Shown piece by piece: positions 1,935 to 44,614 of a stretch of 45,725 bases of DNA. The position numbers and the translations under genes are program-made. Each line of letters begins with the position of its first letter. The stretch's first letter is position 1. The stretch lies in assembly GCA_003246455.1 (NCBI GenBank), contig QKAF01000020.1, positions 1 through 45,725 on the forward strand, written 5' to 3'. Under the pieces are notes generated by a model, which saw only the letters and a program-made list of their open reading frames with translations, was not told the DNA's origin and did not search any database. The DNA is from Bacteroidota bacterium. GTDB lineage: Bacteria; Bacteroidota; Ignavibacteria; SZUA-365.

Positions 1935-4343
1935 CTAGAACGTCAGGTGCAGCGCGGCGATGAAATTGCGGCCGGGGGCGGTGATGCCCGAGGAATACGG
2001 GCGATAGCGCTTGTCCGCGATGTTTTCCACGCCCAGGCTCAGGCGCAGCAGGTCCGAGATCTGATAGCGCGCCTTGAGATTGAAGATGGTCCAGGCCGGC
2101 GCGTACGGTTTGCCGTTCGCATCGAGCGCGTAGAGATAGTCGCGTCCTTCGAGCTGAATGCCGAGGTCTTCATTGGCGACTTCCCCGTTGTACACGGCCG
2201 CGAGTTCGGCTTCGAAGCGGTGCTGCTTGTACAGCAGCTGCGTCACGCCGAACCAGGGTGCCGCATGGCGCAGGGGCGCGCTGCTGCCGTCGTCGAGCGT
2301 TTCCTCGCCCTCCTGCCAGCTGAAATGCGACACGATGCGGAAGCCGAAACCGAGATGACATTCCACCGACGCCTGCACGCCCTGCACCCAGGCGTCCGCG
2401 GCATTCTGTATCGCCTCGACCTTGCTGAGCGTTCCGTCGTACATGATGCTGTCCATGCCGTTGAAGAGATAGTCACGCCGCACGAGTGCGTCCTGAAGCC
2501 AGGTGTAATACCCGGTCACCTCGATGCGCAGAAAATCGTCGAAGCGGTGATTGATGCCCACCTCGAGATTCGTCGCGTATTCGGGATTGAGATCCGGATT
2601 GGGAACGACGACCGATCCGGGAGCCGAATCGAAAATCTTCCCGGCGTCATCCACGTTCGGCGAACGGAAACCGGTCGCGAGATTGAGCGTCAGCTGTGTC
2701 TCCTCGCGCAGGGAGAAGATCGCGCCCAGGCTGCCGTTGAGCGCCCCGTTGCGCATGCGCGCCTCGGTAAAGGGAAACGGATAGAAGGTCGGATCGAAAT
2801 CCGCGTCGAGCGTCACGTAGTTGTATCGCACGCCGCCCTGCAGGGTGAGCAGATCACTCACGCGGCTGCGGTATTCGAGGTACGCGGCCCAGGAACTCCA
2901 CGTACTGCCGTCAGGGTAGCGGCTGGGTCCCGGCACGACGGCACCCGTTTCGATATCCTCCTCTTCTCCGGTCGACGTGACCATGTCGTACAGCGCTTCC
3001 AGGCCGTAGTACAGCGACTGATGCGCGCCGAAGGACTTCGTGAAATCGAGGTTCGCAGAGACGACGTCCACCTTCTCGGTGCGATGATGCAGGGTGGTCT
3101 TGCCGAAATCGCGATCGTTCCGGCTCTCCTCGAAGTACTGGTACGCCGCGGTGGCATGCAGCTGATCGTACCAGCCGCCGCCGTCGGTATGGGCGAGGTT
3201 GAGCGCGTGCATCATCCAGATCTGCGGACCGTAGTACCATTCGGCGGAACGCAGTCCGTCGCCCTTCGGACGCGTCAGACGGTCGTAGCGGGGGTAATCG
3301 GACGTGCGGGAGTAATGCGCGCCATAGGTGAAATCCCACTTCTCGCTGGGACGGAAGCGGATTTTCTGCATCAGGTTGAGCTGCTGGTAACCGCTGGCTA
3401 CCTGCTTCTCCGGATCCGGATTGGTGAGGATCGTATCCCGTCCGCCGACGCGCTGCTGATAGCGCGTCCGCAGATACGCGTCCGGACCGTCGCTGCCCAT
3501 CCACAGGTCTTCATAATCCGAGAAGGTCACGCTCGTGAGGAAGCCCCAGCGCCGCAGGCCGAACATCAGATTGACATGTCCTGTTTTCTCGGTGTTGGCG
3601 CTCGCCCCGCGCAGCGTGGCGTTGCCGGCGAAGAGCATGCGGTCGGAATCCGACAGCCGTGGATTCATGGTGGTGAAGCTCATCACGCCGCCGATGGCGT
3701 CGCTGCCGTACATGACCGATCCCGGTCCGAACACCACCTCCGTCCGTTCGACGGCGAGCGGGTCGAGGGAGATGACGTTCTGAACGTTGCCGCTGCGGAA
3801 GATCGCGGTGTTCATCCGCACCCCGTCGACGGCGATCAGCACGCGGTTGGTCGCGAAGCCGCGGAGCATGGGACTCCCGCCGCCGAGCTGGCTTTTCTGT
3901 ATGTACACCTGTCCCGACGCGCCGAGCATATCGGCCGCCGTCTGCGGCATCTCGCGTTCGACGTCCGTCGGATGCAGGGTCAGCGTACGGCTGGGAATTT
4001 CGCTCCGCTGCAGCGACCACCGGGTGGCGGAAATGATGACCTCGTCGGTACGGAAGGGCGTCTCCTCCATGTAGAGGGTGGGTTCCCCGGCGACGAGCGC
4101 GTCGTAACTGCGCAGCACGGTGCGATAGCCGAGCAGATCGAAGCGGATGCTGTCCGCTCCGCGGAACGCGGCGATGTCGGCATTGCCGCGAATATCGCTC
4201 CGGGCATAGGTGTTCGTCCGGCCTGAATATATGGAGACGTCCGCGAGCGGCCGGCCGGTCACGTTGTCGCGGATGGTCAGGATCTGTCCCTGTGCGAAAC
4301 TCGCGCACAGCAGCAGCATCCCGAGGATGATCGATGATTTCAT
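1935..4343 (-). CDS. TonB-dependent outer-membrane receptor (heme/haemoglobin-type)
   Basis: An 802-aa outer-membrane beta-barrel receptor. It has a signal peptide (MKSSIILGMLLLCASFAQG), then a carboxypeptidase-regulatory-like domain (about residues 22-95: ILTIRDNVTGRPLADVSIYS). The TonB box/plug region follows (about 105-240), with the typical PQTAADMLGASGQVYIQKSQ, MLRGFATNRVLIAVDGVRMN, and GPGSVMYGSDAIGGVMSF. The barrel closes with an aromatic C-terminus (FIAALHLTF). The plug best resembles the haemoglobin/transferrin/lactoferrin receptor group, but the ligand is not proven. The start at 4343 is preferred because AAAGGATC lies just upstream; an upstream in-frame extension has no signal-peptide character. 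The gene follows a small secreted protein on the same strand, 103 bp away. Confidence 0.9.
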   Translation of the reverse strand: MKSSIILGMLLLCASFAQGQILTIRDNVTGRPLADVSIYSGRTNTYARSDIRGNADIAAFRGADSIRFDLLGYRTVLRSYDALVAGEPTLYMEETPFRTDEVIISATRWSLQRSEIPSRTLTLHPTDVEREMPQTAADMLGASGQVYIQKSQLGGGSPMLRGFATNRVLIAVDGVRMNTAIFRSGNVQNVISLDPLAVERTEVVFGPGSVMYGSDAIGGVMSFTTMNPRLSDSDRMLFAGNATLRGASANTEKTGHVNLMFGLRRWGFLTSVTFSDYEDLWMGSDGPDAYLRTRYQQRVGGRDTILTNPDPEKQVASGYQQLNLMQKIRFRPSEKWDFTYGAHYSRTSDYPRYDRLTRPKGDGLRSAEWYYGPQIWMMHALNLAHTDGGGWYDQLHATAAYQYFEESRNDRDFGKTTLHHRTEKVDVVSANLDFTKSFGAHQSLYYGLEALYDMVTSTGEEEDIETGAVVPGPSRYPDGSTWSSWAAYLEYRSRVSDLLTLQGGVRYNYVTLDADFDPTFYPFPFTEARMRNGALNGSLGAIFSLREETQLTLNLATGFRSPNVDDAGKIFDSAPGSVVVPNPDLNPEYATNLEVGINHRFDDFLRIEVTGYYTWLQDALVRRDYLFNGMDSIMYDGTLSKVEAIQNAADAWVQGVQASVECHLGFGFRIVSHFSWQEGEETLDDGSSAPLRHAAPWFGVTQLLYKQHRFEAELAAVYNGEVANEDLGIQLEGRDYLYALDANGKPYAPAWTIFNLKARYQISDLLRLSLGVENIADKRYRPYSSGITAPGRNFIAALHLTF

Positions 4344-4446
4344 TTCTGATCCTTTGTTTGCAATGGGTAAAACACGGAATAACACGGCGGTCATCGCCGC
4401 GTGCGGGACGCGGGATGCAGCCAGTCCATGATTGCAGGGAAAAGGA

Positions 4447-29443: not shown

Positions 29444-29472
29444 TTGAACTTGCGTGGAATCCTTCATAGGTT
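29444..29472 (+). promoter_or_regulatory. Candidate promoter of gene E
   Basis: TTGAAC (29444-29449), 17-nt spacer, TAGGTT (29467-29472). The -35 is good and the -10 moderate. Confidence 0.4.
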
Positions 29473-29525
29473 TTAGGACAGGAGAGGAAGTCTCCGTACT
29501 ATTATCATTCGTTTTCGGAGGGCAT

Positions 29526-31238
29526 ATGTACCTATTGCGATCGCACTCAAAGCGGTTTCTCCATCTTATTTTCCTGCTCGCGGCATTGATTTCATTGAGC
29601 GGGAACGTCCTTGCGCAGGACATGCGTCCGGACCTCATGTATTTCCGCTTCGACGAAACGGGACAGACCGTGTCCGTGAACAAGGCACATCCGGCGACGC
29701 GTGTCGTCCCGGACGGCAGCATCACCGGCGCGCTTACGATGAGCGGCACCGGGCAGTTCGGATCCGCGCTCGTTTCCCCGACCGGCAGCGGCCAGTTCGT
29801 CACGGGCTGGTCCACGAATCTCGGCAGCTCGAGCTTCACGATTTCTTTCTGGCTGAACCTGCCGGCCAATCCCAACAACGGTGTCAACTACCTGTGGGGT
29901 GACGTCGGCGCGTCCTCCTTCCGCTGCTTCGAAGGCGGCGTCGCGGGCCAGGGCGGACTCTATTTCCGCGGTCCCATCACCGATGTGATCATTCCTCCGA
30001 ACACCATCCCCGTCAACACCCCGAAAGTCATTCACTACGTGTACGACAAGCCGGCGAACGTGATCCGCGCCTACGTTGACGGTGTGCTCGCCGTCACGCA
30101 GGCCCAGCCCACAACGGTGACCATCTCCGGCAGCGGCTTTTTCATCAGCGGCTACAGTTCGGGTGGCGCCATGTACGCCGGAACCTCCATCGATGAATTC
30201 CGCATCTACGGCCGGGCACTCACCGACCAGGAAATCGCGGATTCGTGGAACCGCGATGTGGACTGTTTCTTCCCCGACGGCACCATGACGTACGAGTTGC
30301 TCGACGGCAACCTTCAGCCGACGACCTTCGCACAGGTTCCCGGGATTCTGAATCTCGGTTACTCCGTCAGCTTTCCCGCGACGGCGGCACCGGTCAACAT
30401 CACGCTGAACTTCCACAACGTCATCACCGACGCCATCGTCTTCACGCACAGCTTCACCGTCAACAAGCTCGCCGGGCAGACCCTCACAGGCATCGAGGCC
30501 ATCCCGCTTCCGCCGAGCATGCCGACCGGCTATTTCCGCGTCGAAGTGATTTTCAACAATCATAACAGCTGCGATATTCCCGCCGATTACATCGCCAAGG
30601 ACGCCACGCTTCTGCTGCTGCCTCCGGGCGCGCAGATGTGCGTCGTCTGGCCGGGCGACGTGGACAACGACGGGCTGGTCAACTATGCCGACCGCGCCGC
30701 GCTGAACAAGTACATCTACGACGCGAACCTCCGCAGCAGCTGGCTGAACGGTCCGACGCGCTACAGCGTCGTGGGCGGCTTCGACTACATCGAGTGGAAA
30801 GCCCAGCCCAGCGCTCCGTGGGAAACCCCGGAAGGATGCTACATGGATACCGACGGCAACGGTGTCATCAATAATTACGACTACATCGCGATCAAGCTGA
30901 ACTGGCTGCGGTCGCATGGCGTGCTCCCGCCGAAGCAGGCGCACACGCTGGACGCGAAGTCCTTCGATATGGAGCAGAATTTCCCGAACCCGTTCAATCC
31001 CTCGACCAGCATCCGCTACGCGGTACCCGAGCGCAGCCAGGTTCGCCTGGTCGTCACCGACATGCTCGGCCGTGAGATCGCCACCCTGGTCAGCGAATCC
31101 GTCGACGCCGGCGTGCATACCGCACAGTTCGACGCGGCGAATCTGACCAGCGGCAGCTACGTCGCGGTCGTTTCGATGACCGGACTCGAAAGCGGGCTCA
31201 CCTTCAGCAAGACCATGATGATGACGCTGAGCAAATAA
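29526..31238 (+). CDS. Cassette gene E: LamG/concanavalin-like module, dockerin-like module, T9SS sorting domain
   Basis: A 570-aa secreted protein. Signal peptide about 1-35 (ends GNVLAQ). Residues about 38-240 form a LamG/concanavalin-type beta-sandwich: LMYFRFDETG, SFTISFWLNLPANP, VIHYVYDKPANVIRAYVDG, and IDEFRIYGRALTDQEIADSW, a signature of carbohydrate- or protein-binding LamG domains. The second beta module (about 245-360) matches genes A/B (CFFPDGTMTYELLDGNLQPT). Dockerin-like module about 369-460, loops DVDNDGLVNYAD and DTDGNGVINNYD. Sorting domain from about 481. ATG 29526 follows CGGAGGGCAT, which decides the start over an in-frame ATG at 29454. Confidence 0.9.
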   Translation: MYLLRSHSKRFLHLIFLLAALISLSGNVLAQDMRPDLMYFRFDETGQTVSVNKAHPATRVVPDGSITGALTMSGTGQFGSALVSPTGSGQFVTGWSTNLGSSSFTISFWLNLPANPNNGVNYLWGDVGASSFRCFEGGVAGQGGLYFRGPITDVIIPPNTIPVNTPKVIHYVYDKPANVIRAYVDGVLAVTQAQPTTVTISGSGFFISGYSSGGAMYAGTSIDEFRIYGRALTDQEIADSWNRDVDCFFPDGTMTYELLDGNLQPTTFAQVPGILNLGYSVSFPATAAPVNITLNFHNVITDAIVFTHSFTVNKLAGQTLTGIEAIPLPPSMPTGYFRVEVIFNNHNSCDIPADYIAKDATLLLLPPGAQMCVVWPGDVDNDGLVNYADRAALNKYIYDANLRSSWLNGPTRYSVVGGFDYIEWKAQPSAPWETPEGCYMDTDGNGVINNYDYIAIKLNWLRSHGVLPPKQAHTLDAKSFDMEQNFPNPFNPSTSIRYAVPERSQVRLVVTDMLGREIATLVSESVDAGVHTAQFDAANLTSGSYVAVVSMTGLESGLTFSKTMMMTLSK

Positions 31239-31376: not shown

Positions 31377-32528
31377 ATGCATATGAATACGTACGTACGA
31401 TTGTTGTGCAGTTTCGTGCTTTTCGGCTTCGCCGCCACTGCTGCCGCGCAGAGTCCCCCAGCGAGTCTGGAGCTTTACCCCATTTTCGGCGGCTCGAACG
31501 AAGTGCGCATCGGCGCGCGGATGGCGCCGCAGATGACCACGATGAGCCTCGAGGCGGTGTCGGTTGCCGTCGCGTATGACCCGTCGATCCTCGGTGTGAA
31601 TGCCAATACCAGCATCGCCAACCGCTTCTTCCAGCAGTACGGCTGGGACAACGGTTCCGACGCGACCTGGGACAATGACGGCATCAATCCCGATGTCGCG
31701 GTGTACGCGGAATATCACCCGAACTTCGGATCGCAGTCCATTTCCCGCGGCGCTCCGCCGACGCTCTGCGAGTTCGTCTTCTATCCGAAATCATCCGCTC
31801 CCGGATGCGCTGATTTCTGGGTGTACGCCAACAACCAGACAGCGGCGCTTACCTACTACTTCGAATACCAGGTTTCCACGCAGCAGAATTACGATCCGGT
31901 GACCAACATCGTCTGCATGCCGTACCCGGTCGAGCTGAGCTCGTTCACCGCGGCACAGCAGGGCCGGATGGTGGCCGTGCGCTGGTCGACCGAAAGCGAA
32001 ACCAACAATCACGGTTTCCACATCGAGCGCCGCGATCTCGCGAACGCCGCCGGTGAATGGGCCGAACTCGGCTTCGTCGAAGGAGCCGGCGATTCTCCCG
32101 CGGGACGCCAGTACATCTATTTCGACCAGAGCGTTCCGCATGACGGCGATTTCGCCTACCGGCTGAAGCAGGTGGATTTCGACGGCACGACCAACTTCAC
32201 CGACGCGGTGATCGTGCATTATGTCGACGCGCCGCTTCAATTCGCCCTGCGGCAGAATTATCCCAACCCCGTCTCCCTCTCCGACGGCGCCGCGACACAT
32301 GTCGGATACGACGTCGCCGAGCGCAGTCACATTCGCGTGCGCGTCACCAACCTGCTCGGACAGCAGGTGGCCGTGCTCGCCGACCGCAGCCTGGACGCCG
32401 GATCGTACACCTCCGACTGGATGCCCACTGGTGTCCCCGCCGGAACGTACATCGTCACCATGCATGCGCAGACCGAGGAGTCGGGACGCACTGAGGTTCT
32501 GCATCAGCGCATCCAGGTGATTCGCTGA
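31377..32528 (+). CDS. Gene F: T9SS-exported protein with a possible cohesin-like N-terminal domain
   Basis: A 383-aa secreted protein; an ATG two codons downstream is equally possible. Signal peptide about 1-25 (ends AATAAAQ). Residues about 28-175: a beta-rich domain with LEAVSVAVAYDPSILGVN and TLCEFVFYPKSSAPGCADFW. The hydrophobic strand ending YDP-x-x-L and the later strand F-x-F-x-P resemble cohesin-type jelly rolls, but this is only a pattern match by eye. Residues about 178-285: a fibronectin-III-like domain common in T9SS proteins (PVELSSFTA ... VRWSTESETNNHGFHIERR). Residues about 292-383: sorting domain (LRQNYPNPVSLSDGA). It lacks the dockerin loops found in its five neighbours. Confidence 0.82.
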   Translation: MHMNTYVRLLCSFVLFGFAATAAAQSPPASLELYPIFGGSNEVRIGARMAPQMTTMSLEAVSVAVAYDPSILGVNANTSIANRFFQQYGWDNGSDATWDNDGINPDVAVYAEYHPNFGSQSISRGAPPTLCEFVFYPKSSAPGCADFWVYANNQTAALTYYFEYQVSTQQNYDPVTNIVCMPYPVELSSFTAAQQGRMVAVRWSTESETNNHGFHIERRDLANAAGEWAELGFVEGAGDSPAGRQYIYFDQSVPHDGDFAYRLKQVDFDGTTNFTDAVIVHYVDAPLQFALRQNYPNPVSLSDGAATHVGYDVAERSHIRVRVTNLLGQQVAVLADRSLDAGSYTSDWMPTGVPAGTYIVTMHAQTEESGRTEVLHQRIQVIR

Positions 32529-34175: not shown

Positions 34176-34631
34176 ATGAAGCTGCTGGATTCCATTTCCG
34201 CCTGGGCGGACGCGCATCACCCGAGATGGCTCGACGTCCTTCGTATGCTGCTCGGGATCATCCTGTTCGCCAAGGGACTCACCTTCATTCTCGACAAGGA
34301 ACTCACGCTGCAGGTCCTGCACGACAACAATTTTGACTTCATGTCGCTGCTGATCGTGCATTACGTGATCATTTTCCAGATGGCGCACAGCGTGCTGATC
34401 ACGGTCGGACTCATCACCCGGTGGGCCGTCGCGGCGCAGATCCCGATCGTCGCGGGCGCGATCTACTTTATCACGACCAACAGCACCTTCCAGCCGCTGG
34501 GCTCGGACCTCTGGCTCGCAGTGCTGCTGCTGTTTCTCCTGCTGTTTTTCCTTGTCTCCGGCGCGGGTCCCATGTCTGTCGACGCGGTGATCAGGCGGAA
34601 AAGAGATGCGACGCAGGAGTCGCTGGTATAG
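34176..34631 (+). CDS. DoxX-like small membrane protein
   Basis: A 151-aa protein with four hydrophobic helices (about residues 20-38, 58-80, 84-100 and 108-130). The N-terminal helix contains LDVLRMLLGIILFAKGLTFI, typical of DoxX/SURF4-type proteins, followed by a conserved HYVIIFQMAHSVLITVGL. The function of most bacterial members is unknown. CGGAGG lies 8 nt before the ATG. It is about 95 bp past the reductase gene and could share its transcript; a strong hairpin ends the unit. Confidence 0.75.
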   Translation: MKLLDSISAWADAHHPRWLDVLRMLLGIILFAKGLTFILDKELTLQVLHDNNFDFMSLLIVHYVIIFQMAHSVLITVGLITRWAVAAQIPIVAGAIYFITTNSTFQPLGSDLWLAVLLLFLLLFFLVSGAGPMSVDAVIRRKRDATQESLV

Positions 34632-34661
34632 CAGAAAATCCGCCATGGGCGGATTCTCTGC
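34631..34661. terminator. Terminator hairpin after the DoxX-like gene
   Basis: AATCCGCC-ATG-GGCGGATT (34637-34655), extended by GCAGA/TCTGC with one mismatch. On the minus strand the stem is followed by TTTTC, so it may act in both directions. Confidence 0.65.
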
Positions 34662-34668
34662 GCGACAG

Positions 34669-34761
34669 ACAGGAAGTTGGAGACCGCGGGCCGGAGACTC
34701 GCCGCGGCAGGCAGGAAGTCGGAGATCGCGGGCCGGAGACTCGCCGCGGCAGGCAGGAGGT
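34669..34761. repeat. 42-bp tandem repeat, two copies plus a partial third
   Basis: Copies at 34669-34710 and 34711-34752 share GGCCGGAGACTCGCCGCGGC and flanks, with few substitutions. A third copy breaks off after about 9 nt. It lies between convergent genes and is not inside a credible coding frame. Confidence 0.85.
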
Positions 34762-34779
34762 AAGCGGGCGGAACGCTGA

Positions 34780-35172
34780 TCAGCGCAGCGTGAACTTCAC
34801 CGGAACCGCCACTTTTGTCTTTACTGCTTTTCCGTCCACCTTACCGGGAGTGAAGTCCACCATTCCGACGGCTTTCAGCGCGGCGTCGCTGAGCAGGTCA
34901 CTGTTGCTTTTCAGGATTGTCACGTCATCGACCTTTCCGTCGATCCCGATGAGCGCCTGGACGATCACCGTTCCCTCGATCTTCTCCTTCACCGCCGCTT
35001 CGGGATACACGATGTGCTCGCGCAGCGCGCTGAGTCCGCCGACAATCTGCGGCGGCGTTTCCACTTCTTCGAGATAATCCGCGGGATCGACCTTCGGCTT
35101 CGCGTCATCCTGCGCGGAGGCGGGAAGTGCGGCGAAGGCCAGCAGTACCATGGTCAGAATGAAATATTTCAT
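34780..35172 (-). CDS. Free secreted TonB C-terminal-domain protein
   Basis: A 130-aa protein with a signal peptide (about 1-20, ends ALPASAQ) and a single TonB C-terminal domain. The domain has PPQIVGGLSALREHIVYPEA, then GTVIVQALIGIDGKVDDVTI, and VDFTPGKVDGKAVKTKVAVP. It has no transmembrane anchor and no Pro-rich spacer, so it is not a standard TonB that energises receptors. The same domain is fused to the two M56 peptidases upstream in this operon. The start at 35172 follows AAGGAG; a longer frame would hide the signal peptide. Likely role: an accessory periplasmic domain for the same system (inference). Confidence 0.85.
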   Translation of the reverse strand: MKYFILTMVLLAFAALPASAQDDAKPKVDPADYLEEVETPPQIVGGLSALREHIVYPEAAVKEKIEGTVIVQALIGIDGKVDDVTILKSNSDLLSDAALKAVGMVDFTPGKVDGKAVKTKVAVPVKFTLR

Positions 35173-35268
35173 GAGAAACTCCTTGAACGGGCGGGGTGCG
35201 AAGCGAGGGAATTCTGTCTGCCCCGGGCGCGTGCCCCGCAATGAAATTGAATGAAAGTGTCTCTGCGT

Positions 35269-36645
35269 CTACTTCAGTCGAAACTTGATGGGGATGGTGA
35301 TGGTCGACGGGATATCGCTTTCGTTTCGGAAACCGGCCTTGAATTTCACCGATCTTACGGCTTCCAGCGCCGCCGCATCGAGCAGCGGATGAACGGATCT
35401 GATGACGCGGACCGAGGACGCGGGGCCGTCTTCCTCGACGGTCGCTTCCACGATGACCACACCTTCGAGTCCCTCCTTCATCGCGCGTTCGGGATACTTG
35501 ATGTGCGAACTGAGCGCATCCATTCCCCCGACGATGCTCGGCCCGGCCACCGATTTCAGGTCATCCTTTTTGCTGTACTCCATGGTCGATTTCACCGGGT
35601 AATCGACGGACGCCTGCGGCGACGCGAGCGGCTGCGCGGCGGCGAGGGAATCCTCGGGATACTCCGTCAGCGTCTCGGTATAGGTGACTTTCCGCTCGCA
35701 GTGCCATGACAGGGGAAGGATGAGGAGCGAAAGGGCGACGACGGCGGCGTAGTGCTTCCACTGCATCACCGTCCGGCTGCCGCTGTTGAAAAGTTCGTTG
35801 ACGCGCTGGACGAAGCCGCGGCGGGTTTCGAAGAAGCAGGTGCCGGTCTGCAGGACGCGCGACGGCTGTGCCTCGGCAAACCCCAGCAGCAGGCGGCCAT
35901 ACTCGCGGGGAAGCGTTCCCGAAGTCTGCATCGCCTCGTCGTCGCAGATCAGTTCGCGGTAGCGGAAAAGCCGGAGATTCGCGAGCCACATCAGGGGATT
36001 GAGCACATACGCGATCTGCACCAAGGTCTGCAGCAGCACCATCAGTCCGTCGCGGCGCCGGATATGCGCGCGCTCGTGCTGCAGCACCGCAAGCAGAATT
36101 TCCCGCGGCGCTTCCGCGATCGCGGGAGTGATGTAGATGCGGGGGCGACGGAGGCCGGCGGCGAGCGGTGAGGGAATGCCGTCGATGACCATGATCGCCG
36201 GCCAGTCGCCCGCGGGGGCGCGGTCGAAGGGAACCGCCTCGCGCAGCAGACGACGCAGGCCGATCGCTCTCCATGCCGCCACCGCTGCCAGGAACAGCGA
36301 GCTTGCCGCGATCAGACTGAGCAGGATGGCCGGGAAGGAAATTCCGGCGGTATCGGCCGCGAAGGTTGTTCCGGCGATGGCTTCCACCGGGGCGAGGATT
36401 ACCGACGGTGCGGGAAGTCCGCTGCTCCCGGGAAGAGAGATGACCGGGGGAATCAGCGCCTTGACGAGCGCGGTCGTCCACAGCAGGTAGCGAAAGCGCG
36501 GAGTTGCGAGCCGCGCGGGAAGCGCGCGTTCGATCAGCCAGATCAGCAGGATGAACCCGGCAGTCTGCAGCTGCATGGTGAACCAGAAGTTCAGGAGCCG
36601 TGCGGCGTTCACGTCGAAAAGCGTTTCAAAAATATCCATGATCAT
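35269..36645 (-). CDS. M56 (BlaR1-like) membrane peptidase fused to a TonB C-terminal domain, copy 1
   Basis: A 458-aa fusion. Membrane part (about 1-310) with hydrophobic segments near 15-40, 55-70 and 100-125. The zinc motif HERAH (H190, E191, H194) is in a cytoplasmic loop, with ICDDEA (E237) as the third ligand, and there is a last helix near 290-305. Residues about 365-458 are a TonB C-terminal domain (GPSIVGGMDALSSHIKYPER ... ITIPIKFRLK). Classical BlaR1 carries a penicillin-binding sensor in that position; none is present. In the BlaR1 model, activation of the M56 site leads to repressor cleavage. The start ATG overlaps the stop of the upstream gene (ATGA), so translation is coupled. 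Confidence 0.9.
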   Translation of the reverse strand: MIMDIFETLFDVNAARLLNFWFTMQLQTAGFILLIWLIERALPARLATPRFRYLLWTTALVKALIPPVISLPGSSGLPAPSVILAPVEAIAGTTFAADTAGISFPAILLSLIAASSLFLAAVAAWRAIGLRRLLREAVPFDRAPAGDWPAIMVIDGIPSPLAAGLRRPRIYITPAIAEAPREILLAVLQHERAHIRRRDGLMVLLQTLVQIAYVLNPLMWLANLRLFRYRELICDDEAMQTSGTLPREYGRLLLGFAEAQPSRVLQTGTCFFETRRGFVQRVNELFNSGSRTVMQWKHYAAVVALSLLILPLSWHCERKVTYTETLTEYPEDSLAAAQPLASPQASVDYPVKSTMEYSKKDDLKSVAGPSIVGGMDALSSHIKYPERAMKEGLEGVVIVEATVEEDGPASSVRVIRSVHPLLDAAALEAVRSVKFKAGFRNESDIPSTITIPIKFRLK

Positions 36646-38057
36646 ATCGGTTCGTTGAAAGGATGAACCGGTCCGGGCTTGGCTTTCGCTTCGTTTCCGA
36701 GACTGAAGCGGATGGGAATGGTCATATCACCCATCAGTATCTTTCCATTACGTCGCGCGGCCTTGAATGTTACGGCTTTCACGGCCTTGACCGCCGCCTC
36801 GTTGAGGAGGGGATCCGCCGAGCAGACCACGTTCGCGTAGACGACCTTTCCGTCGGTCCGAATATCCGCCTGTATGACCACCGTACCTTCGATGCCGTTT
36901 TTCCTCGCCTCCTCCGGATACTCGACGAGCTTTGCGAGCGCCTCGAGTCCTCCGACGATGCGCGGTCCCTTCTGGGTCTTCATCTTCCCTTCCTTCTGGT
37001 AACGGACCGTGGCCGACACCGGTGCGCCGAGCATGAGATGTCCGGCATCGGGACTCGTGCTGTCACCGACGACACATTCATATGACGTGTCCCACACCTC
37101 GTAATAACTGGCCGACGGATCGCTGCAGCGCAGCGACAGCGGAACGATGGCTGCCAGCAGGAGGAGCATCGCCACGCGGTGTTTCCCTTTCATCTGATAG
37201 TTCTCCTTGATATGGAAAAGCTGGGAAATGCGCTGGGTGAAACCCCGGCGCGTTTCGAAGAAGCAGGTCCCGACCTGCATCAGGGGAGCGGGACGCGATC
37301 CGGCGTACGCGAGCAGCAGATCGCCGTATTCGCGGGGCGGAAGCCCGGCGGCCTGCAGCGCGGCTTCGTCGCAGATCTGTTCGCGGTAGCGGAACAGCCA
37401 CATGTTCATGAGCCAGACCAGGGGGTTGAGCACGGCGACGACCTGCGCGAGCATCTGCAGTCCGGCGACGAGACCGTCGTGCCGGCGGAGATGTTCGCGT
37501 TCGTGATGCAGCACCGCATGCAGCAGATGGCGGGGCGCCGCGGCGGTCTGCTGCGTGATGAAAATGCGCGGCCGGAAGACGCCCACGGCGAGCGGCGTAT
37601 CGACACGATCGGAGATGAACACCCGCGGTGCGCCGCGCCACGCGTCATGCGTGAACGCCGCAGCCCCGGAGAGTCTGCGCCGCAGCTGCAGCATGCGCGC
37701 AGCCACGAAAAACGCCATCGCGGCGGAAGCGGCGATGAGCAGCGCCGCCGCAATGATCTCGACCGAGATGCTTCCCGCGGAAACCCGCGCGGTATACGCC
37801 GAGACATCGACCGCGGGCATCGTGAAGGCTCCCACCGTCGATTTCGCACCCGAGGGCAGAAGATGCAGCGGGGGGACGAGCGCCTTGATCAGCGCGGTCA
37901 GCCAGAGCAGGTAGCGCACGCGCGGGGTCGCGTCACGGAGCAGGCTGTCGACCGCGAACACCAGCAGGATGAACACGGCGGTCTGCAGCTGCATCGTGAC
38001 CCAGATATTGATGATCTGCGCGGCGTTCGCCTGGAGATACGACATCAGCGCGTTCAT
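36642..38057 (-). CDS. M56 (BlaR1-like) membrane peptidase fused to a TonB C-terminal domain, copy 2
   Basis: A 471-aa paralogue of the next gene downstream. The M56 zinc motif HEREH (H185, E186, H189) with ICDEA (E231) is intact. Shared signatures include VRYLLWLTALIKALVPP, LNPLVWLMNMWLFRYREQIC and VGTCFFETRRGFTQRI. The periplasmic C-terminus is a TonB domain (about 370-455: GPRIVGGLEALAKLVEYPEE, GTVVIQADIRTDGKV). The tail adds about 17 residues (KAKPGPVHPFNEPI). The start overlaps the blaI-like stop by ATGA. No beta-lactam-binding motif (SxxK/KTG) is visible in the periplasmic part. Confidence 0.9.
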   Translation of the reverse strand: MNALMSYLQANAAQIINIWVTMQLQTAVFILLVFAVDSLLRDATPRVRYLLWLTALIKALVPPLHLLPSGAKSTVGAFTMPAVDVSAYTARVSAGSISVEIIAAALLIAASAAMAFFVAARMLQLRRRLSGAAAFTHDAWRGAPRVFISDRVDTPLAVGVFRPRIFITQQTAAAPRHLLHAVLHHEREHLRRHDGLVAGLQMLAQVVAVLNPLVWLMNMWLFRYREQICDEAALQAAGLPPREYGDLLLAYAGSRPAPLMQVGTCFFETRRGFTQRISQLFHIKENYQMKGKHRVAMLLLLAAIVPLSLRCSDPSASYYEVWDTSYECVVGDSTSPDAGHLMLGAPVSATVRYQKEGKMKTQKGPRIVGGLEALAKLVEYPEEARKNGIEGTVVIQADIRTDGKVVYANVVCSADPLLNEAAVKAVKAVTFKAARRNGKILMGDMTIPIRFSLGNEAKAKPGPVHPFNEPI

Positions 38058-38461
38058 TTCTTTCCCTCCCTCCCGCCGGCGTCATCGGAATCCTGCTCGT
38101 CGAGCAGTCTGCGCAGCGCGGCGACGTCTTCCTCGCTCAGCTTCCGGCTGACGAGAAACGATGCCATGGCCCCGAAGCTGCCGCGGAACATGCGGTCGGC
38201 GACGGTGGACATCGACGCGTCGAGCACCTTCTCCCGCCGCACCGCCGGCGTGTACTGATTGACCATGCCCTGCTTCTCCCGGCGCAGCATGCCCTTTTCG
38301 ACCAGAATGTTCATCAGCGTCTGCACCGTCGTGTACGCCTTCTCCTCGTTCGGATACGCCGTCTCGAGCACTTCCCGCACGGTCACCGCGCCGCCGGCCT
38401 CCCATATCACCGCCATCAGTTCCCATTCCGCCGCGGAGAGTTCGTGTTTCTTCTGTGCCAT
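38054..38461 (-). CDS. BlaI/MecI/CopY-family repressor
   Basis: A 135-aa winged-helix repressor. The N-terminal domain has LSAAEWELMAVIWEAGGAVT, VREVLETAYPNEEKAYTTVQ and TLMNILVEKGMLRREKQG, typical of BlaI/MecI, including the recognition helix AYTTVQTLMNIL. The C-terminal dimerisation part ends LSEEDVAALRRLLDEQD. BlaI-type proteins are inactivated by proteolysis when the partner M56 protein is triggered. It is the first gene of a coupled operon with two M56-TonB proteins. A 16-bp palindrome lies 13 bp before its ATG, so autoregulation is likely. Confidence 0.93.
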   Translation of the reverse strand: MAQKKHELSAAEWELMAVIWEAGGAVTVREVLETAYPNEEKAYTTVQTLMNILVEKGMLRREKQGMVNQYTPAVRREKVLDASMSTVADRMFRGSFGAMASFLVSRKLSEEDVAALRRLLDEQDSDDAGGREGKK

Positions 38462-38473
38462 GACGCCTCGTTC

Positions 38474-38489
38474 TACTAAATTTTTAGTA
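38474..38489 (-). promoter_or_regulatory. Likely BlaI operator
   Basis: The perfect palindrome TACTAAATTTTTAGTA (7-bp arms TACTAAA/TTTAGTA, 2-nt centre) directly abuts the -10 hexamer on its downstream side. It covers the expected transcription start, as expected for a repressor site. Confidence 0.75.
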
Positions 38490-38518
38490 ACTATACGAAA
38501 CTCTTAGGAGCTTGTCAA
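38490..38518 (-). promoter_or_regulatory. Near-consensus sigma70 promoter of the BlaI operon
   Basis: Minus strand: TTGACA (38513-38518), 17-nt spacer, TATAGT (38490-38495). The -35 is a perfect consensus and the spacing is ideal. Confidence 0.88.
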
Positions 38519-39007
38519 GAGGCATGCGAAATTTTTCCCGTCGTCATGCCGAGCAGACCCGCGCAGCGGGACGTATCGAGGCACTACGCCCTGAAAGGGC
38601 GGCACCATTCCGTCTCTCCCGTGTCGCCCTTTCAGGGCGAGGGGAGGAAGGCCGGGTGCGGATCGCCGATCCCGGGGCTGAAGCCCCGGGCTGCAATGTG
38701 GCACCCCTCCGGGGTGCGATCGTTGCTTCGCATCGACCTCTGCCAGGTGCGTCCCCTAGGGGTGCCGCCCCTCGATACGCGCTGCCCGTCCCGTCTCCGT
38801 CCCGCGCGGCGGGACTTAGCCGTGGCGGGCATCGTTACTCGGGGTGACGATGCGAAGGCGGGAATCTTTTACGGATATGTCGCATCCTATTTTGCGACCG
38901 GCGTCGGCATTCGTCCTCCGGACGGATGAGGTATTCCGGTGTCTTTTGTCCTGATATTTCGTAATTTTCCGGAACACTATCGTTACGAGCTGTCCGGGAG
39001 CAAAGGT
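38519..39007. other. Gene-free region rich in intergenic hairpins
   Basis: About 490 bp without a credible gene. Several open frames across it (60-130 codons) are low-complexity Arg/Gly/Pro translations of palindromic repeats and lack ribosome-binding sites. The left two thirds hold the hairpin cluster listed separately. The last about 100 bp is AT-richer and should carry the promoter of the efflux operon, though I cannot pick convincing hexamers. Confidence 0.7.
38587..38815. repeat. Cluster of six short palindromes (REP-like)
   Basis: Six hairpins: CGCCCTGAAAGGGCG (38587-38601) and its exact reverse complement (38625-38639), CCCGGGGCTGAAGCCCCGGG (38671-38690), GCACCCCTCCGGGGTGC (38701-38717), CCCCTAGGGG (38753-38762) and GTCCCGCGCGGCGGGAC (38799-38815). 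The first pair are inverted relative to each other and form a larger inverted repeat. Such GC-rich dispersed palindromes are common between genes in this group of bacteria. Confidence 0.85.
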
Positions 39008-40267
39008 ATGATTCGCTGTCTGACCTTTATTCTTCTTACTCCATTTTTCATTCTCGGCGCGCAGGCACAGGAACTGCGGCTGGAGACACTGCTGTCCTCG
39101 GTCAGTGACGCGCATCCGCGCATCCGCGCGGCGATGGCCGAGATCGACATGCAGCGGGGACGCAAGCTGCAGGCCATTGCGCCGCCTTCGCCGACATTCA
39201 CTTTTCATGAAGAGGAAATCCCGAACGGGGCTTCCCTCGGCGACGGCAATCAGCGGGTCTGGCAGGTAAGCCAGGGATTCGATATTCCGCTGCTGATCGG
39301 CGCGCGCGGCTACGCCTACGGCCATCTGCAGCAGGCCGCCGAGCACCGTCTCGCCTTCGCCCGCGCCATGGTGCGCGCGGAGATCATCCGCACGTACACC
39401 GCCTGGTTCGCGGCGCAGCGTCAGCTCCGGCTGCAGGAGGAGAACCTCCGCCTCGCCGGTGATTTCGCACGCAAGGCGCAGCTGCGCTTCGAAAGCGGCG
39501 AGACCAGCGCGCTCGAAGCCGCGCGTGCGCGGGCCGAGGAAGCCACGGCACGCATCGCCCGCGAACAGGCGCAGCGGGCGCTGCAGGTCTCCGCGGCAGC
39601 CCTGTCGCAGGCCGCGGCCCTGAGCACCGTGCCGATGAGCTGGTCGGGTCCGGGCGTCGGACCGCCCCCTGCAGACAGTCTCGAACTCCAGCGCGCGTCC
39701 CGCACGCTGCGTCTCCCGGATGCCCCCGGCGCCGCCACCGTATCGCCGCTGCGCGACGCGCTGCGCGAGGAACGCGACGCCGCGCGGTCGAACGCCTCCT
39801 GGCGATGGATGGAATTCCTTCCCCGCTTCGAGGCCTCGTGGTTCCGGCAGGATTTCAAGGACATCGGCGCGCACTGGGGCGCGGAACTGACCGCTTCCCT
39901 GCCGCTGTGGTTCCTGCTCGACACCCGCGGATCGATCGAGGAACATTCCGCCGCCGCCGCGCAGGCGGATGCGGAATACGAGATCACGATGCGGGAATTC
40001 GAAAACAGCGTCCGCATCGCGCAGAGCGGACTCTCCACCGCCGCGACGAATTTCGCGGCGTACGACGGCGAACTCCTCGACGAATCCGAGCGCATCTCCC
40101 GCGCCGCGGAACTCGGCTACGACAGCGGAGAAATCAGCTACATGGAGTATATCGCCGCACGGCAGACCGCCAATACGATCGCCGTCGGGTATTTCGACGC
40201 CTTCGCGGCACTGTATGCCGCGATCGCGCAATATGAACTCGTCACAGGCACGCACATTCTGGAATAA
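39008..40267 (+). CDS. CusC/CzcC-like outer-membrane efflux protein (TolC family)
   Basis: A 419-aa protein with a signal peptide (about 1-20, ending GAQAQ) and two TolC-type coiled-coil halves. Repeating features include LLSSVSDAHPRIRAAMAEID near the start, LRLQEENLRLAGDFARKAQL, and SGETSALEAARARAEEATAR, then the matching second half SGEISYMEYIAARQTANTIA. It forms the outer-membrane channel for the adaptor and pump encoded next. ATG 39008 follows GGAGCAAAGGT; a longer frame lacks a signal peptide. The adaptor ATG comes 4 nt after this stop codon, showing a tight operon. Confidence 0.9.
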   Translation: MIRCLTFILLTPFFILGAQAQELRLETLLSSVSDAHPRIRAAMAEIDMQRGRKLQAIAPPSPTFTFHEEEIPNGASLGDGNQRVWQVSQGFDIPLLIGARGYAYGHLQQAAEHRLAFARAMVRAEIIRTYTAWFAAQRQLRLQEENLRLAGDFARKAQLRFESGETSALEAARARAEEATARIAREQAQRALQVSAAALSQAAALSTVPMSWSGPGVGPPPADSLELQRASRTLRLPDAPGAATVSPLRDALREERDAARSNASWRWMEFLPRFEASWFRQDFKDIGAHWGAELTASLPLWFLLDTRGSIEEHSAAAAQADAEYEITMREFENSVRIAQSGLSTAATNFAAYDGELLDESERISRAAELGYDSGEISYMEYIAARQTANTIAVGYFDAFAALYAAIAQYELVTGTHILE

Positions 40268-40270
40268 ATC

Positions 40271-41443
40271 ATGAAGCACCTCGTTCTCCTTTCCGCTCTG
40301 TTCCTGCTGCTTGCAGGCTGCAATTCGCAGGACAGCGCCGGAGACCGCACCTCGGCCGACGGCACCGCCCCCGACACTCCCCCCACAGACATCACGCTCA
40401 CAGGCGAAGAAGCCGGCGCCATGAAGCTCGCATTCACTCCGGCTTCCCTTTCAGAGACACAGAAAACCGTCTCGGTTCCCGCCCGCGTCATCGAGGATCC
40501 CGACCAGATCGCCGCGGTCAGCGCACTGATCGACGGACGCATCGGACGCGTCCTCGTGCGGCAGGGACAGGCGGTCTCCTCCGGACAGGTGCTCGCCACG
40601 GTGGTGAGCATGGAACTCGGCAACATGATCGCCGATCTCCTCCGTTCGGAATCCGACCTGCACACCGCCGAAGCGGCGGTCGCACGTCTGCGCGGCCTTT
40701 CTTCCAACGACGCGGTATCGAAAAAGCAGCTGATGGAAGCGGAGAACGCTCACGCAGGCGCCCAGGCCTCGGCCGCCGCCGCCCTCCAGCGCTGCAAGGC
40801 CGCCGGCATGAATGCCGAGGATGTCGCCGCGCTGCGGAAGAATCCGCAGGCCTATGAACCCGAGTTGAAGCTGCGCGCGCCCATCGGCGGCGTGATCAGC
40901 ATGCGCAACGCGTCGACCGGCATGCCGGTTTCGCCGGGACTGGAACTCTTCACCGTGCTCGGCACGCAGTACGCCACCGTCGAAGGCAGCGTGTTCGAGG
41001 ACGACTTCGCAGCGCTGGCGCCCTCACAGGAGGCCGTGTTCAGCACGACCGCCTACCCGGGAAAGACGTTCAGCGGCACGATCTTCTATGTCGCCCCGAC
41101 CGTGGACGACGCTTCGCACGCCCTCCCCGTGCGCGTGCGGCTGTCGAACCCGGGCGGCGCCCTCAAACCGAACCTGTACGGCCGCCTCGACGTCCGCACC
41201 AACGCGCGCGACAGCGTGCTGAGCGTTCCCGCCGACGCCATCGTGTACGACGGCAGCGACCGCTACCTCTTCGTGGTGAAAGGCGAGAACAGCTTCTCCT
41301 ACCGTCGCGTCGAAACCGGACGTGAGTTCGACAACGCCGTCGAAATCACCCGCGGCATCGCGGCCGGAGAACAGGTGGTGAGCGGCGGCGTGTTTCATCT
41401 GAAATCGCGCTACAAGCTTTCGCTGTCCGCGGAAGAAGAGTAG
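40271..41443 (+). CDS. CusB/CzcB-like periplasmic adaptor (membrane-fusion lipoprotein)
   Basis: A 390-aa RND adaptor. It has a lipoprotein signal with lipobox LLAGC (C17). Domain order is hairpin-lipoyl-barrel: the first lipoyl half (GRIGRVLVRQGQAVSSGQVL), an alpha-hairpin (about 120-190), the second lipoyl half (LKLRAPIGGVISMRNASTG), then a beta-barrel (VEGSVFEDDFAALAPSQEAV) and a membrane-proximal domain (FDNAVEITRGIAAGEQVVSG). It bridges the inner-membrane pump and the outer-membrane channel. No N-terminal His/Met-rich metal-binding extension is seen. The gene sits 4 bp after the channel gene and 12 bp before the pump gene. Confidence 0.92.
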   Translation: MKHLVLLSALFLLLAGCNSQDSAGDRTSADGTAPDTPPTDITLTGEEAGAMKLAFTPASLSETQKTVSVPARVIEDPDQIAAVSALIDGRIGRVLVRQGQAVSSGQVLATVVSMELGNMIADLLRSESDLHTAEAAVARLRGLSSNDAVSKKQLMEAENAHAGAQASAAAALQRCKAAGMNAEDVAALRKNPQAYEPELKLRAPIGGVISMRNASTGMPVSPGLELFTVLGTQYATVEGSVFEDDFAALAPSQEAVFSTTAYPGKTFSGTIFYVAPTVDDASHALPVRVRLSNPGGALKPNLYGRLDVRTNARDSVLSVPADAIVYDGSDRYLFVVKGENSFSYRRVETGREFDNAVEITRGIAAGEQVVSGGVFHLKSRYKLSLSAEEE

Positions 41444-41455
41444 GATGGAGGAGAC

Positions 41456-44400
41456 ATGAGCGCCAGAATCATCGACTTCGTCCTGAAGAATCGTCTCTTC
41501 GTCCTCGGCTTCGTGCTCACGATCGTGGGTCTCGGCATCTACTCGGTGCAGGATATCCCGATCGACGCCTTCCCCGACGTCACCAACAACCAGGTGCAGG
41601 TCATCACCGAGGCGCCCAACATTTCCCCCGTGGAAGTCGAGCGCCTCGTGACCTTCCCGATCGAGAACGCCATGAACGGCATTCCCGACGTGATGGAAGT
41701 GCGCTCGATTTCGAAGTACGGCCTGAGCGTCGTGACCGTCGTGTTCGAGGACCGTGTGGACACCTACTTCGCACGGCAGCTGATTTCCGAGCGCCTCTCG
41801 AACATCCGCTCCGAACTCCCGGCCGGCGTCAAACAGCCCGTGCTCGGCCCGGTCTCCACCGCCCTCGGCGAGATCTACCAGTACGTGGTCGAAGGCGAGG
41901 GCTTCACACCCATGGAACTGCGCACGATACAGGAATGGATCGTCAAGCCGCAGCTGAAAACCATTCCGGGCGTCACCGAGGTCAACAGCTTCGGCGGCTT
42001 CGTCAAGCAGTACCAGATCCTCACCGATCCCGGGCGCCTGCGGGCCTACGACCTGAGTATCGCCGACGTATTCGACGCCATCGAGCGCAATAACGCCGTG
42101 GCCGGCGGCAGCTTCATCGAGCACAACGGCGAAGCGTTCATCATCCGCGGCATGGGACTGGTGACGCAGCCGACGGAACTCGGCGACATCGTCGTCAAGA
42201 CCGTCGGCAACGTGCCGGTGTTCATCCGCCAGGTGGCCTCCGTCACCGTCGGACCCGAGGTCCGCGCGGGCGCCGTGACCAAGGACGATGAGGGCGAGGT
42301 CGTCACCGGCATCATCATGATGCTGAAAGGACGCAACAGCCGCGAAGTCATCACGCGCATCAAGGAGAAAGTGACGGAGGTGAACAAATCCCTCCCGCCC
42401 GGCGTGCGCATCACCTCGTTCTACGACCAGACCGAGCTGGTCAACAACACCATCGCCACCGTGGAGAAGAACCTGATCGAAGGCGGCATTCTCGTCATCG
42501 CCGTGCTCTTCTTCTTCCTCGGCAACTGGCGCGCGGCGGCCATCGTCGCGCTGGTGATTCCGCTCTCGATGCTCTTCACCTTCATCGGCATGGACCGGCT
42601 CGGACTCTCGGCCAACCTCATGTCGCTGGGCGCGCTCGATTTCGGTATGATCGTCGACGGCGCGGTGGTGCTTGTCGACAACTTCGTGCGGCATATGCGG
42701 GACAAGAAGAACGAGGGAAAGGAGCAGGTGCGGCTCATCGGCGACAGCGCGAAGGAAGTCGCGCGGCCGATCACCTTCGGCGTCATCATCATCATCATGG
42801 TGTACGTCCCCATTCTCACCTTCGAGGGAATGGAAGGAAAGATGTTCGCTCCGATGGCCTACGCCGTGGGCTTCGCGATCCTCGGATCCGGATCCCTGAT
42901 CCTCATCTTCACCTTCGTGCCCGTGGTGTCGAGCTGGTTCCTGAAGGTGTCAAAGAACCCGAAAGAAAACATCGTCATCCGCTGGCTGGCGCCGCGCTAC
43001 CGCCGCGCGCTGCAGTGGTCGCTGGCTAATACCGCGAAGACCGTCTTCGGCGCGCTGGTCGTGCTCGTAGCTTCGCTTTCCCTCGTGCCGTTCATGGGAA
43101 CGGAGTTCCTGCCCGAACTCGACGAGGGTTCCTTCCTCATCGAAATCAAGCGCCTGCCGAGCGTTGCGCTCAGCGAGTCGGTGGAATCGGGAAAGAAAAT
43201 CCAGCACGAAATCATGCTCATTCCCGAAGTGCGCACCGTGGTGTTCAAGACCGGGCGTCCCGACCTGGCGAACGACTACATGGGACTGCATGAAACCGAC
43301 GGCTTCGTGCTGCTCAAGCCGCGCGACGAATGGCGCGACGGCATCAGCAAATCGGATGTTGAGCGCGAACTCGAAGCCATCGTGGCGCGCTACCCCGACA
43401 TCAACTACGGCTTCACCCAGCCCATCGCCATGCGCGTCGACGAACTCGTCGCCGGCGTGAAGAGCGACGTAGCGGTGAAGATCTTCGGCGAGGACTTCGA
43501 CATCCTTCGCCAGCGGGCCTCCGACATCGAACGGCTGGTGCAGTCCATTCCCGGCACCGGGAGTGTGATGGTCGAGCAGGTGTCCGGCCAGACCTACCTC
43601 GACATCAAGATCAACCGCGGCAAGGTCGCGCGCTACGGACTCAACGTCGCCGACGTGCAGGACGTGATCGAAACCGCCATCGGCGGCCGCACGGCCACCG
43701 AGGTGTACGAAGGCACGCGCCGGGTGGACGTCGTCGTGCGCTACACGGCCGAAAGCCGCAACGACATCGGCGTCATCCGCACGCTGCTCGTCTCCCTGCC
43801 CGACGGCAGCCGCCTCCCGCTCGCGCAGCTGGCGGACATTGAAGCCGTGGAGGGTCCCGTACAGATCAGCCGCGAACAGGGTCAGCGCCGCATCGTCGTC
43901 GGCGTCAACCTCTCCGGCCGCGACGTCGGCAGCTACGTCGAGGAACTGCAGCGGCGCGTCGACGCATCCATTTCACTGCCCGCCGGGTACTATCTCGTGT
44001 ACGGCGGACAGTTCGAAAACCAGCAGCGCGCGATGGGCCGTCTCTACCTCGTCGTGCCTCTCGCCCTGCTGATCATCTACCTGCTGCTGTTCACCATGTT
44101 CGGCAACCTGCGCAATTCGCTGCTGATTCTGACGAACCTCCCGTTCGCACTCTCCGGCGGTATCGTCTTCCTCTTCCTGCGCGGGCTGAACATCTCCGTC
44201 ACCAGCGCCATCGGCTTTATCGCCCTCTTCGGTGTCGCGGTGCTCAACGGCGTCGTGCTCATCGAGCATCTCAACCACAAGCGTCACGAGATCCGCGATC
44301 TCGACGGCGCGGTGGTGGAAGGCGCGGTCGATCGACTGCGTCCCGTGCTCATGACCGCGCTCGTCGCCTCGCTCGGCTTCATCCCGATGGCGCTGAACAC

Positions 44401-44614
44401 CACGCAGGGAAGCGAAGTACAGCGTCCCCTCGCCACCGTCGTCATCGGCGGACTCATCACCTCGACGCTCCTGACGCTGCTCGTTCTCCCCACGATTTAC
44501 GCGTGGATCGAACGCCGCCTGCGTCCGGAACTGGGTCCCATCGAATGCATGAAGAGGATCGTGTTGCCCCGGAAGTTCTGGGGAGAGGATGAGGATAATG
44601 GGAAGATCGAATGA
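41456..44614 (+). CDS. CusA/CzcA-family heavy-metal RND efflux pump
   Basis: A 1052-aa proton-driven inner-membrane pump with twelve helices and two large periplasmic loops. Start: IIDFVLKNRLFVLGFVLTIV. The proton-relay helix contains LDFGMIVDGAVVLVDN; D395, D401 and D408 correspond to CzcA D402, D408 and E415, with Asp replacing the usual Glu at the third position. The second half has IGFIALFGVAVLNGVVLIEH and RLRPVLMTALVASLGFIPMA, as in heavy-metal pumps. The family exports Co/Zn/Cd/Ni or Cu/Ag. The metal cannot be assigned: Cus-type methionine clusters are not obvious, which favours a Czc-like divalent metal. GGAGGAG lies before the ATG. Confidence 0.95.
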   Translation: MSARIIDFVLKNRLFVLGFVLTIVGLGIYSVQDIPIDAFPDVTNNQVQVITEAPNISPVEVERLVTFPIENAMNGIPDVMEVRSISKYGLSVVTVVFEDRVDTYFARQLISERLSNIRSELPAGVKQPVLGPVSTALGEIYQYVVEGEGFTPMELRTIQEWIVKPQLKTIPGVTEVNSFGGFVKQYQILTDPGRLRAYDLSIADVFDAIERNNAVAGGSFIEHNGEAFIIRGMGLVTQPTELGDIVVKTVGNVPVFIRQVASVTVGPEVRAGAVTKDDEGEVVTGIIMMLKGRNSREVITRIKEKVTEVNKSLPPGVRITSFYDQTELVNNTIATVEKNLIEGGILVIAVLFFFLGNWRAAAIVALVIPLSMLFTFIGMDRLGLSANLMSLGALDFGMIVDGAVVLVDNFVRHMRDKKNEGKEQVRLIGDSAKEVARPITFGVIIIIMVYVPILTFEGMEGKMFAPMAYAVGFAILGSGSLILIFTFVPVVSSWFLKVSKNPKENIVIRWLAPRYRRALQWSLANTAKTVFGALVVLVASLSLVPFMGTEFLPELDEGSFLIEIKRLPSVALSESVESGKKIQHEIMLIPEVRTVVFKTGRPDLANDYMGLHETDGFVLLKPRDEWRDGISKSDVERELEAIVARYPDINYGFTQPIAMRVDELVAGVKSDVAVKIFGEDFDILRQRASDIERLVQSIPGTGSVMVEQVSGQTYLDIKINRGKVARYGLNVADVQDVIETAIGGRTATEVYEGTRRVDVVVRYTAESRNDIGVIRTLLVSLPDGSRLPLAQLADIEAVEGPVQISREQGQRRIVVGVNLSGRDVGSYVEELQRRVDASISLPAGYYLVYGGQFENQQRAMGRLYLVVPLALLIIYLLLFTMFGNLRNSLLILTNLPFALSGGIVFLFLRGLNISVTSAIGFIALFGVAVLNGVVLIEHLNHKRHEIRDLDGAVVEGAVDRLRPVLMTALVASLGFIPMALNTTQGSEVQRPLATVVIGGLITSTLLTLLVLPTIYAWIERRLRPELGPIECMKRIVLPRKFWGEDEDNGKIE

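Follow-up and report, generated by a model that had tools for sequence, protein, structure and literature searches.

A BlaI repressor operon with two M56-TonB fusion proteases in the Ignavibacteria: a candidate self-regulating proteolytic switch

The BlaR1/BlaI switch activates penicillin resistance in Staphylococcus, and the TonB C-terminal domain (TonB_C) normally binds outer-membrane transporters. Here we describe an operon with features of both systems, found in a window of 45,725 nucleotides (the whole stretch of DNA analysed) from a Bacteroidota bacterium of the class Ignavibacteria. The operon shares with BlaR1/BlaI and MecR1/MecI of Staphylococcus and Bacillus a BlaI repressor, a four-TM M56 gluzincin with its catalytic residues, self-cleavage and repressor-cleavage sites with Phe at P1', and dyads that lie on the repressor operon's promoter. 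Unlike BlaR1/BlaI, it has TonB_C as putative sensor in place of a penicillin-binding domain and lacks a beta-lactamase or PBP target. It also differs in having two sensors, an added secreted TonB_C protein and an operator found only at its own operon.

Compared with the TonB energy transducer, the C-terminal domains have the same fold (Z 9.8-11.6 to TonB-CTDs), but the N-terminal anchor and Pro-rich spacer are missing, and the third gene product has no anchor at all. Other M56/TonB fusions of Bacteroidota, known from database annotation, resemble those of the operon in that BlaI adjoins M56-TonB_C, a dyad precedes BlaI and a juxtamembrane Cys is present. The operon differs from them in its third, secreted TonB_C gene and its shorter proteins. 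We found no description of M56-TonB function or mechanism in the open-licence literature, which agrees with the initial annotation, where such fusions were known as annotations with no described mechanism.

The operon and its conservation

Open reading frames and Pfam/NCBIfam matches place four genes on the minus strand, read from 38461 to 34780: blaI, two M56-TonB_C fusions (M56a and M56b) and a gene for a secreted TonB_C protein (Table 1). The initial annotation had read the locus as a BlaI repressor, two M56-TonB fusions and a free TonB domain, and the reading frames, domain matches and coordinates all agree with this. The three TonB C-terminal domains that it counted were recovered as PF03544 in all three proteins. 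Its ATGA coupling holds for the blaI/M56a and M56a/M56b junctions, which both overlap by 4 nt; the last gene follows M56b after a 96-nt gap and has an AAGGAG Shine-Dalgarno sequence.

Table 1. Coordinates of the genes and regulatory elements of the operon within the window
Feature	Position	Strand	Description
blaI	38054..38461	-	BlaI/MecI-family winged-helix repressor, 135 aa; Penicillinase_R PF03965 E 2.8e-31
M56-TonB_C fusion a (M56a)	36642..38057	-	471 aa; Peptidase_M56 E 5.8e-26, TonB_C E 3.9e-17
M56-TonB_C fusion b (M56b)	35269..36645	-	458 aa; M56 E 1.7e-26, TonB_C E 4.3e-19
Secreted TonB_C protein	34780..35172	-	130 aa; TonB_C E 3.3e-20
Promoter, sigma-70-type	38490..38518	-	TTGACA-17 nt-TATAGT, 11/12 consensus
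Operator dyad O1	38494..38509	-	TCCTAA-GAGT-TTCGTA, between -35 and -10
Operator dyad O2	38474..38489	-	TACTAA-AAAT-TTAGTA, immediately 3' of -10

The genome that carries the operon measures 4.1 Mb and is 98% complete; no second BlaI and no further M56 protein were found elsewhere in it. Outside the operon it encodes four more TonB_C proteins, among which L005 is a canonical, Pro-rich TonB, and 22 TonB-dependent receptor plugs.

Nine of the 12 genomes of the family that were examined have the operon, that is, its own genome and eight others. Because gene order and operator are kept in these eight, the operon is more than a chance arrangement. At the family loci, the genes for BlaI, M56-TonB and the secreted TonB_C protein adjoin DoxX and geranylgeranyl-reductase-like genes. 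DoxX was not detected at one of these loci (L049), and the locus of G003 is cut short by contig ends. The second M56 copy was seen only in G000 and G003, within the genus of the operon's genome.

The repressor, the fusion proteases and the secreted TonB domain

The Penicillinase_R domain covers model positions 1-115 of 115 in BlaI, and MecI/BlaI structures match the protein with E-values of 8e-13 to 2e-9. In the alignment to these structures, Ser101-Phe102 falls on the known BlaI cleavage bond N101|F102. The P1' residue is Phe in eight of the nine family proteins and Tyr in the remaining one. With a full-length domain, a P1' Phe and a dyad operator at its own promoter, the operon's BlaI appears to have the features common to the BlaI/MecI family.

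M56a consists of an M56 membrane zinc protease domain, a juxtamembrane Cys311, a short linker and a periplasmic TonB_C domain (residues ~361-455). Its H185-H189 (HExxH), E226xxxD230, D194, Y244 and R276 correspond to H201ExxH, E242xxxD, Asp210, Tyr261 and Arg294 of BlaR1, the roles of which are taken from PMC9834060. This catalytic set is invariant across an alignment of 19 M56-TonB proteins and is intact in M56b, which is 43% identical to M56a. A GTCFFETRRG segment is identical in every family sequence displayed in the alignment, and its C265|F266 bond (GTC265|F266 in M56a) lines up with S283|F284, the bond at which BlaR1 cleaves itself. The profile of the 19 proteins matches S. aureus BlaR1 (8exp) with an E-value of 1e-23, and TonB C-terminal domains are the sole other family that it matches. 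An AF2 model of M56a (pLDDT 76) superimposes on BlaR1 8exs (Z 17.3, rmsd 4.0, 237 residues), and its C-terminal domain on TonB-CTDs (Z 9.8), the best match being one in a receptor complex.

No penicillin-binding domain was found, Pfam giving only M56 and TonB_C. KTG and KSG are absent from M56a and M56b, and SxxK occurs only at residue 69 of M56a (in loop EL1) and inside the TonB_C domain of M56b; the two proteins thus have no usable beta-lactam-binding motif, the presence of which would, by the initial annotation, have spoken against its proposal. Its BlaR1/BlaI logic is well supported at the level of sequence and model by the complete catalytic set, the Phe at both cleavage sites, the BlaR1 fold and the conserved operator, and the loss of the beta-lactam sensor is supported as well. 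The catalytic residues, the cleavage-site Phe, the fold and the lack of a penicillin-binding domain therefore suggest that the M56-TonB proteins are BlaR1-like proteases in which the sensor has been exchanged.

The linker of the fusions is ~50 aa long and has no Pro-rich run, whereas that of the genome's canonical TonB is ~85 aa long and Pro-rich. Where TonB has its N-terminal anchor, the fusions have the M56 domain and the third gene a signal peptide. We also considered loop EL1 as a pseudo-TonB box that fills the TonB_C domain. With a profile of 20 receptor TonB boxes, the best-scoring segment of M56a was TMPAVDVSA in EL1 (6.3 bits); most orthologues scored low and some M56 proteins without TonB scored equally high, and the idea was rejected.

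The third gene is best started from ATG 35172; translation from there begins with a clean signal peptide (MKYFILTMVLLAFAALPASA), and the TonB_C domain follows. The protein was searched for a membrane anchor and a lipobox Cys and has neither. Its AF2 model (pLDDT 85) matches TonB-CTDs with Z up to 11.6. The gene accompanies the operon in all nine family genomes that have it, each time with a signal peptide. These proteins form one lineage apart from the M56-borne domains (support 96/86, 97% of bootstrap trees), and still do so once long branches are removed (93/83). As this separate lineage is present in all nine genomes, the secreted protein is an old part of the system and not a recent copy.

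Across the Bacteroidota we sampled 70 M56 proteins, drawn from among the highest-scoring matches and mostly one per genome, which makes the counts a sample and not a census. BlaI adjoins 69 of the 70 loci. TonB_C is carried by 33 of the 70 proteins, and nearly all of these fusions adjoin blaI, so this kind of system is widespread. The initial annotation had proposed a new circuit; the pair of BlaI and M56-TonB is not new in this sense, and what sets the operon apart is its secreted TonB_C protein, its second M56 gene and an operator that seems confined to the operon itself. Eight fused loci of the phylum were read from end to end, and none has a third TonB_C gene after the fusion. A common origin of all M56-TonB fusions is disfavoured by the TonB domain, since one clade uniting the TonB_C domains of the operon with those of the other fusions gave p 0.009 on few alignment columns; the same test on the peptidase domains gave p 0.27. 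TonB_C may thus have been recruited onto M56 more than once.

A Cys usually marks the exact periplasmic end of TM4 in M56 proteins fused to TonB, and the next two residues are mostly [ST][DE]. It was present in 18 of 20 fused proteins versus one of 22 other M56 proteins in a first set, and in 22/25 versus 3/15 in a second (Fisher p 3e-5, uncorrected for relatedness). This Cys may form an interchain disulfide in a domain-swapped dimer, or may be a lipidation site recalling the signal-peptidase cut of BlaR1. The [ST][DE] after the Cys resembles a lipoprotein signal. Several phylum members also have lipobox-like residues before it (LLAGC, GLMAC); the family does not (PLSLRC, PLSWQC), and the Cys is nonetheless invariant there.

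A double operator at the promoter of blaI

The sequence before blaI forms one conserved block in the nine genomes: TTGACA, O1 within the 17-nt spacer, TATAGT and O2. The near-perfect promoter has its -35 TTGACA in all nine, and a -10 of TATAGT or TATGGT in eight. Each dyad is 16 bp long, and the conserved forms are TCCTAA-N4-TTCGTA (O1) and TACTAA-N4-TTAGTA (O2). The two dyads start 20 bp apart (22 in G007). Because ~20 bp is about two helical turns, two BlaI dimers could share one face of the DNA.

The initial annotation had suggested defining the regulon from all genomic copies of the operator. In the operon's genome, O2 is unique at up to two mismatches and the only double site is the one at the operon. 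Among 391 genomes of the class, the double site occurs exactly once, at blaI, in each of the nine operon-bearing family genomes, and the three family members that lack the operon do not have it. The only other family with this site is f24, where eight genomes have it once each. The two of these that were examined (G313 and G321) have the same layout, with TACGAA-N4-TTCGTA twice, once per genome and again before blaI-M56; their M56 sensor differs in being a long repeat domain without TonB_C. A reversed control pattern gave 0 matches in the 391 genomes. When one dyad alone was searched for, a few additional matches turned up here and there, about as many as with the control, and no regulon was taken from them. 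As the double operator is found only at blaI in a search that may miss weaker or single-dyad operators, the circuit seems to control its own genes alone. A dedicated repressor of its own operon seems the simplest reading of these sequences, with weaker sites possible. A repressor that acts only on itself would be unusual unless the products of the operon are themselves the response.

A candidate switch and its alternatives

We think that the operon probably encodes a BlaR1/BlaI-type proteolytic switch that is self-contained and regulates itself, with the TonB C-terminal domain as periplasmic sensor. A BlaI dimer on each of O1 and O2 would cover the promoter and keep expression of the operon down. 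Gain or loss of a periplasmic partner at the TonB_C domain of an M56-TonB protein would cause a movement that is relayed via TM4, and the zinc protease on the cytoplasmic side would then cleave BlaI at Ser101|Phe102. The freed operon would produce extra M56-TonB and the secreted TonB_C protein, so that, with a double operator only at the operon, the response would consist of the operon's own products. The secreted protein could itself be the effector and bind the partner all over the periplasm. Alternatively, it could compete for the partner in soluble form and, by occupying it, reset the switch and close the loop. Candidate partners are the TonB boxes of the 22 receptors, peptidoglycan or another periplasmic protein. 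The initial annotation had suggested envelope state, receptor occupancy or TonB energisation as the signal; the analysis turned up nothing specific for receptor binding and nothing for energisation. The short linker without a Pro-rich run might not extend as far as the receptor TonB boxes, so the outer-membrane receptors are no more likely to be the partner than peptidoglycan or a periplasmic protein.

The same proteins might instead be effectors. The fusions would act as proteases or tethers on envelope proteins, TonB_C would recruit substrates or position the protease, and BlaI would only control dosage, being cut when in excess. The operator is found only at its own operon, so no other gene would respond, and the M56 gene is duplicated in the operon's genome and in tandem in G213. 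We nevertheless consider this unlikely: the conserved Phe at the BlaI cleavage site and the pairing with BlaI at 69 of 70 loci favour BlaI as the main substrate, and periplasmic substrates are unlikely because the active site of BlaR1 faces the cytoplasm (PMC9834060). Quite improbable, in our view, is that TonB_C couples the switch to PMF-driven action of TonB/ExbBD or to pulling by receptors and thereby reads TonB energisation. The fold is nearest to TonB-CTDs in receptor complexes and the genome has 22 receptors, but there is no TonB-type N-terminal anchor, the linker is short and the TonB-box-like segment in EL1 scores no better than background. With the energised half missing, only passive binding is likely.

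A CusA/CzcA efflux operon (38939-44614) is the divergent neighbour in the window, and the top NCBIfam match of BlaI is CopY, although its score is far under the family cut-off; BlaI might therefore be a CopY-like metal regulator of these genes. This is very improbable: the efflux genes have no operator in front of them, and in other genomes the efflux operon lies 1-4 kb off or not near blaI. With the operator missing and the neighbourhood not kept, the efflux operon was rejected as a BlaI target. The ancestry of BlaI and M56 would suit a genuine beta-lactam sensor with an overlooked binding domain. We regard that as extremely improbable, as the fusions have only M56 and TonB_C domains, the latter with a TonB fold, KTG/KSG is missing and the operon has no beta-lactamase gene.

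Should the M56-TonB proteins act as BlaR1 does, a large group of switches in the Bacteroidota (33 of the 70 sampled M56 proteins) would become a tractable class, and penicillin sensing would become one case of a modular receptor with a freely exchanged outer domain. The operon's lineage would be the simplest test case, with a single repressor, a single operator and a single operon. More tentatively, it is possible that proteolysis switches across the Bacteroidota relay the binding of periplasmic TonB domains, to TonB boxes or the cell wall, to a repressor, and that the sole output here is a soluble TonB domain answering the same partner. If true, this would link the outer membrane and transcription in a closed feedback loop, independent of sigma/anti-sigma signalling. 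A possible lead comes from Porphyromonas gingivalis, in which the blaI of a blaI-M56 pair is ~3-fold down in excess hemin (LFC -1.74; PMC10470040).

Cysteine at the end of TM4 and a separate TonB_C family

Among the M56 proteins compared, a cysteine at the end of the fourth transmembrane helix (TM4), mostly followed by [ST][DE], was found in 40 of 45 TonB-fused members versus 4 of 37 others, with equivalents of M56a Cys311 located in loci L046-L101 and L152-L191. Judged from sequence, this cysteine in the fused proteins looks like a lipoprotein signal; the lipobox is degenerate there in the window's own M56-TonB family. In a distant Bacteroidota genome (G213, locus L094), the M56-TonB genes are duplicated in tandem and the first copy lacks the cysteine.

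Elsewhere in these genomes there is a separate conserved family of short proteins (L009, L106, L108, L110, L112, L114, L115 and L118). They combine a signal-peptide-like start with a TonB_C domain, and a GFDxxQxPTE-like motif stands before that domain.

An apparently different sensor domain behind the same operator

In family f24 of the same class, blaI and an M56 gene stand behind this double-dyad operator too (L197, L198). The M56 protein carries a long periplasmic repeat domain built of GVLGIKPEYVKEMK-like units, so that the sensor seems to have been swapped here as well.

Surroundings of the operon

The CusA/CzcA-type efflux operon lies close to blaI in 4 of the 9 family genomes having the blaI operon, but it lacks the blaI-type operator. 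The 477 bp separating the two in the window are filled with repeat-like palindromes. Beyond the 3' end of the blaI operon, an inverted repeat may serve as a terminator. Two adjacent proteins are putative type IX secretion (T9SS) cargo, since the C-terminus of each weakly matches a family that depends on T9SS.

Coordinates of features in the window and in locus L197
Feature	Sequence	Position	Remarks
TonB-dependent receptor	window	1935-4394	minus strand; plug domain 3684-4004
Adjacent proteins	window	29454-31238; 31377-32528	
Inverted repeat (GCAGAAAATCCGCC...)	window	~34630-34660	candidate terminator
42-nt unit	window	34647-34772	three tandem copies, between operon end and convergent DoxX gene
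M56a Cys311	window	about 37125	exactly at periplasmic end of TM4
Palindromes (CGCCCTGAAAGGGCG and relatives)	window	38587-38639; 38700-38766	between blaI and efflux operon
CusA/CzcA-type heavy-metal efflux operon	window	38939-44614	complete (TolC-like, adaptor, permease)
Double-dyad operator, blaI, M56 protein with repeat domain	L197	729-765; 823-4585
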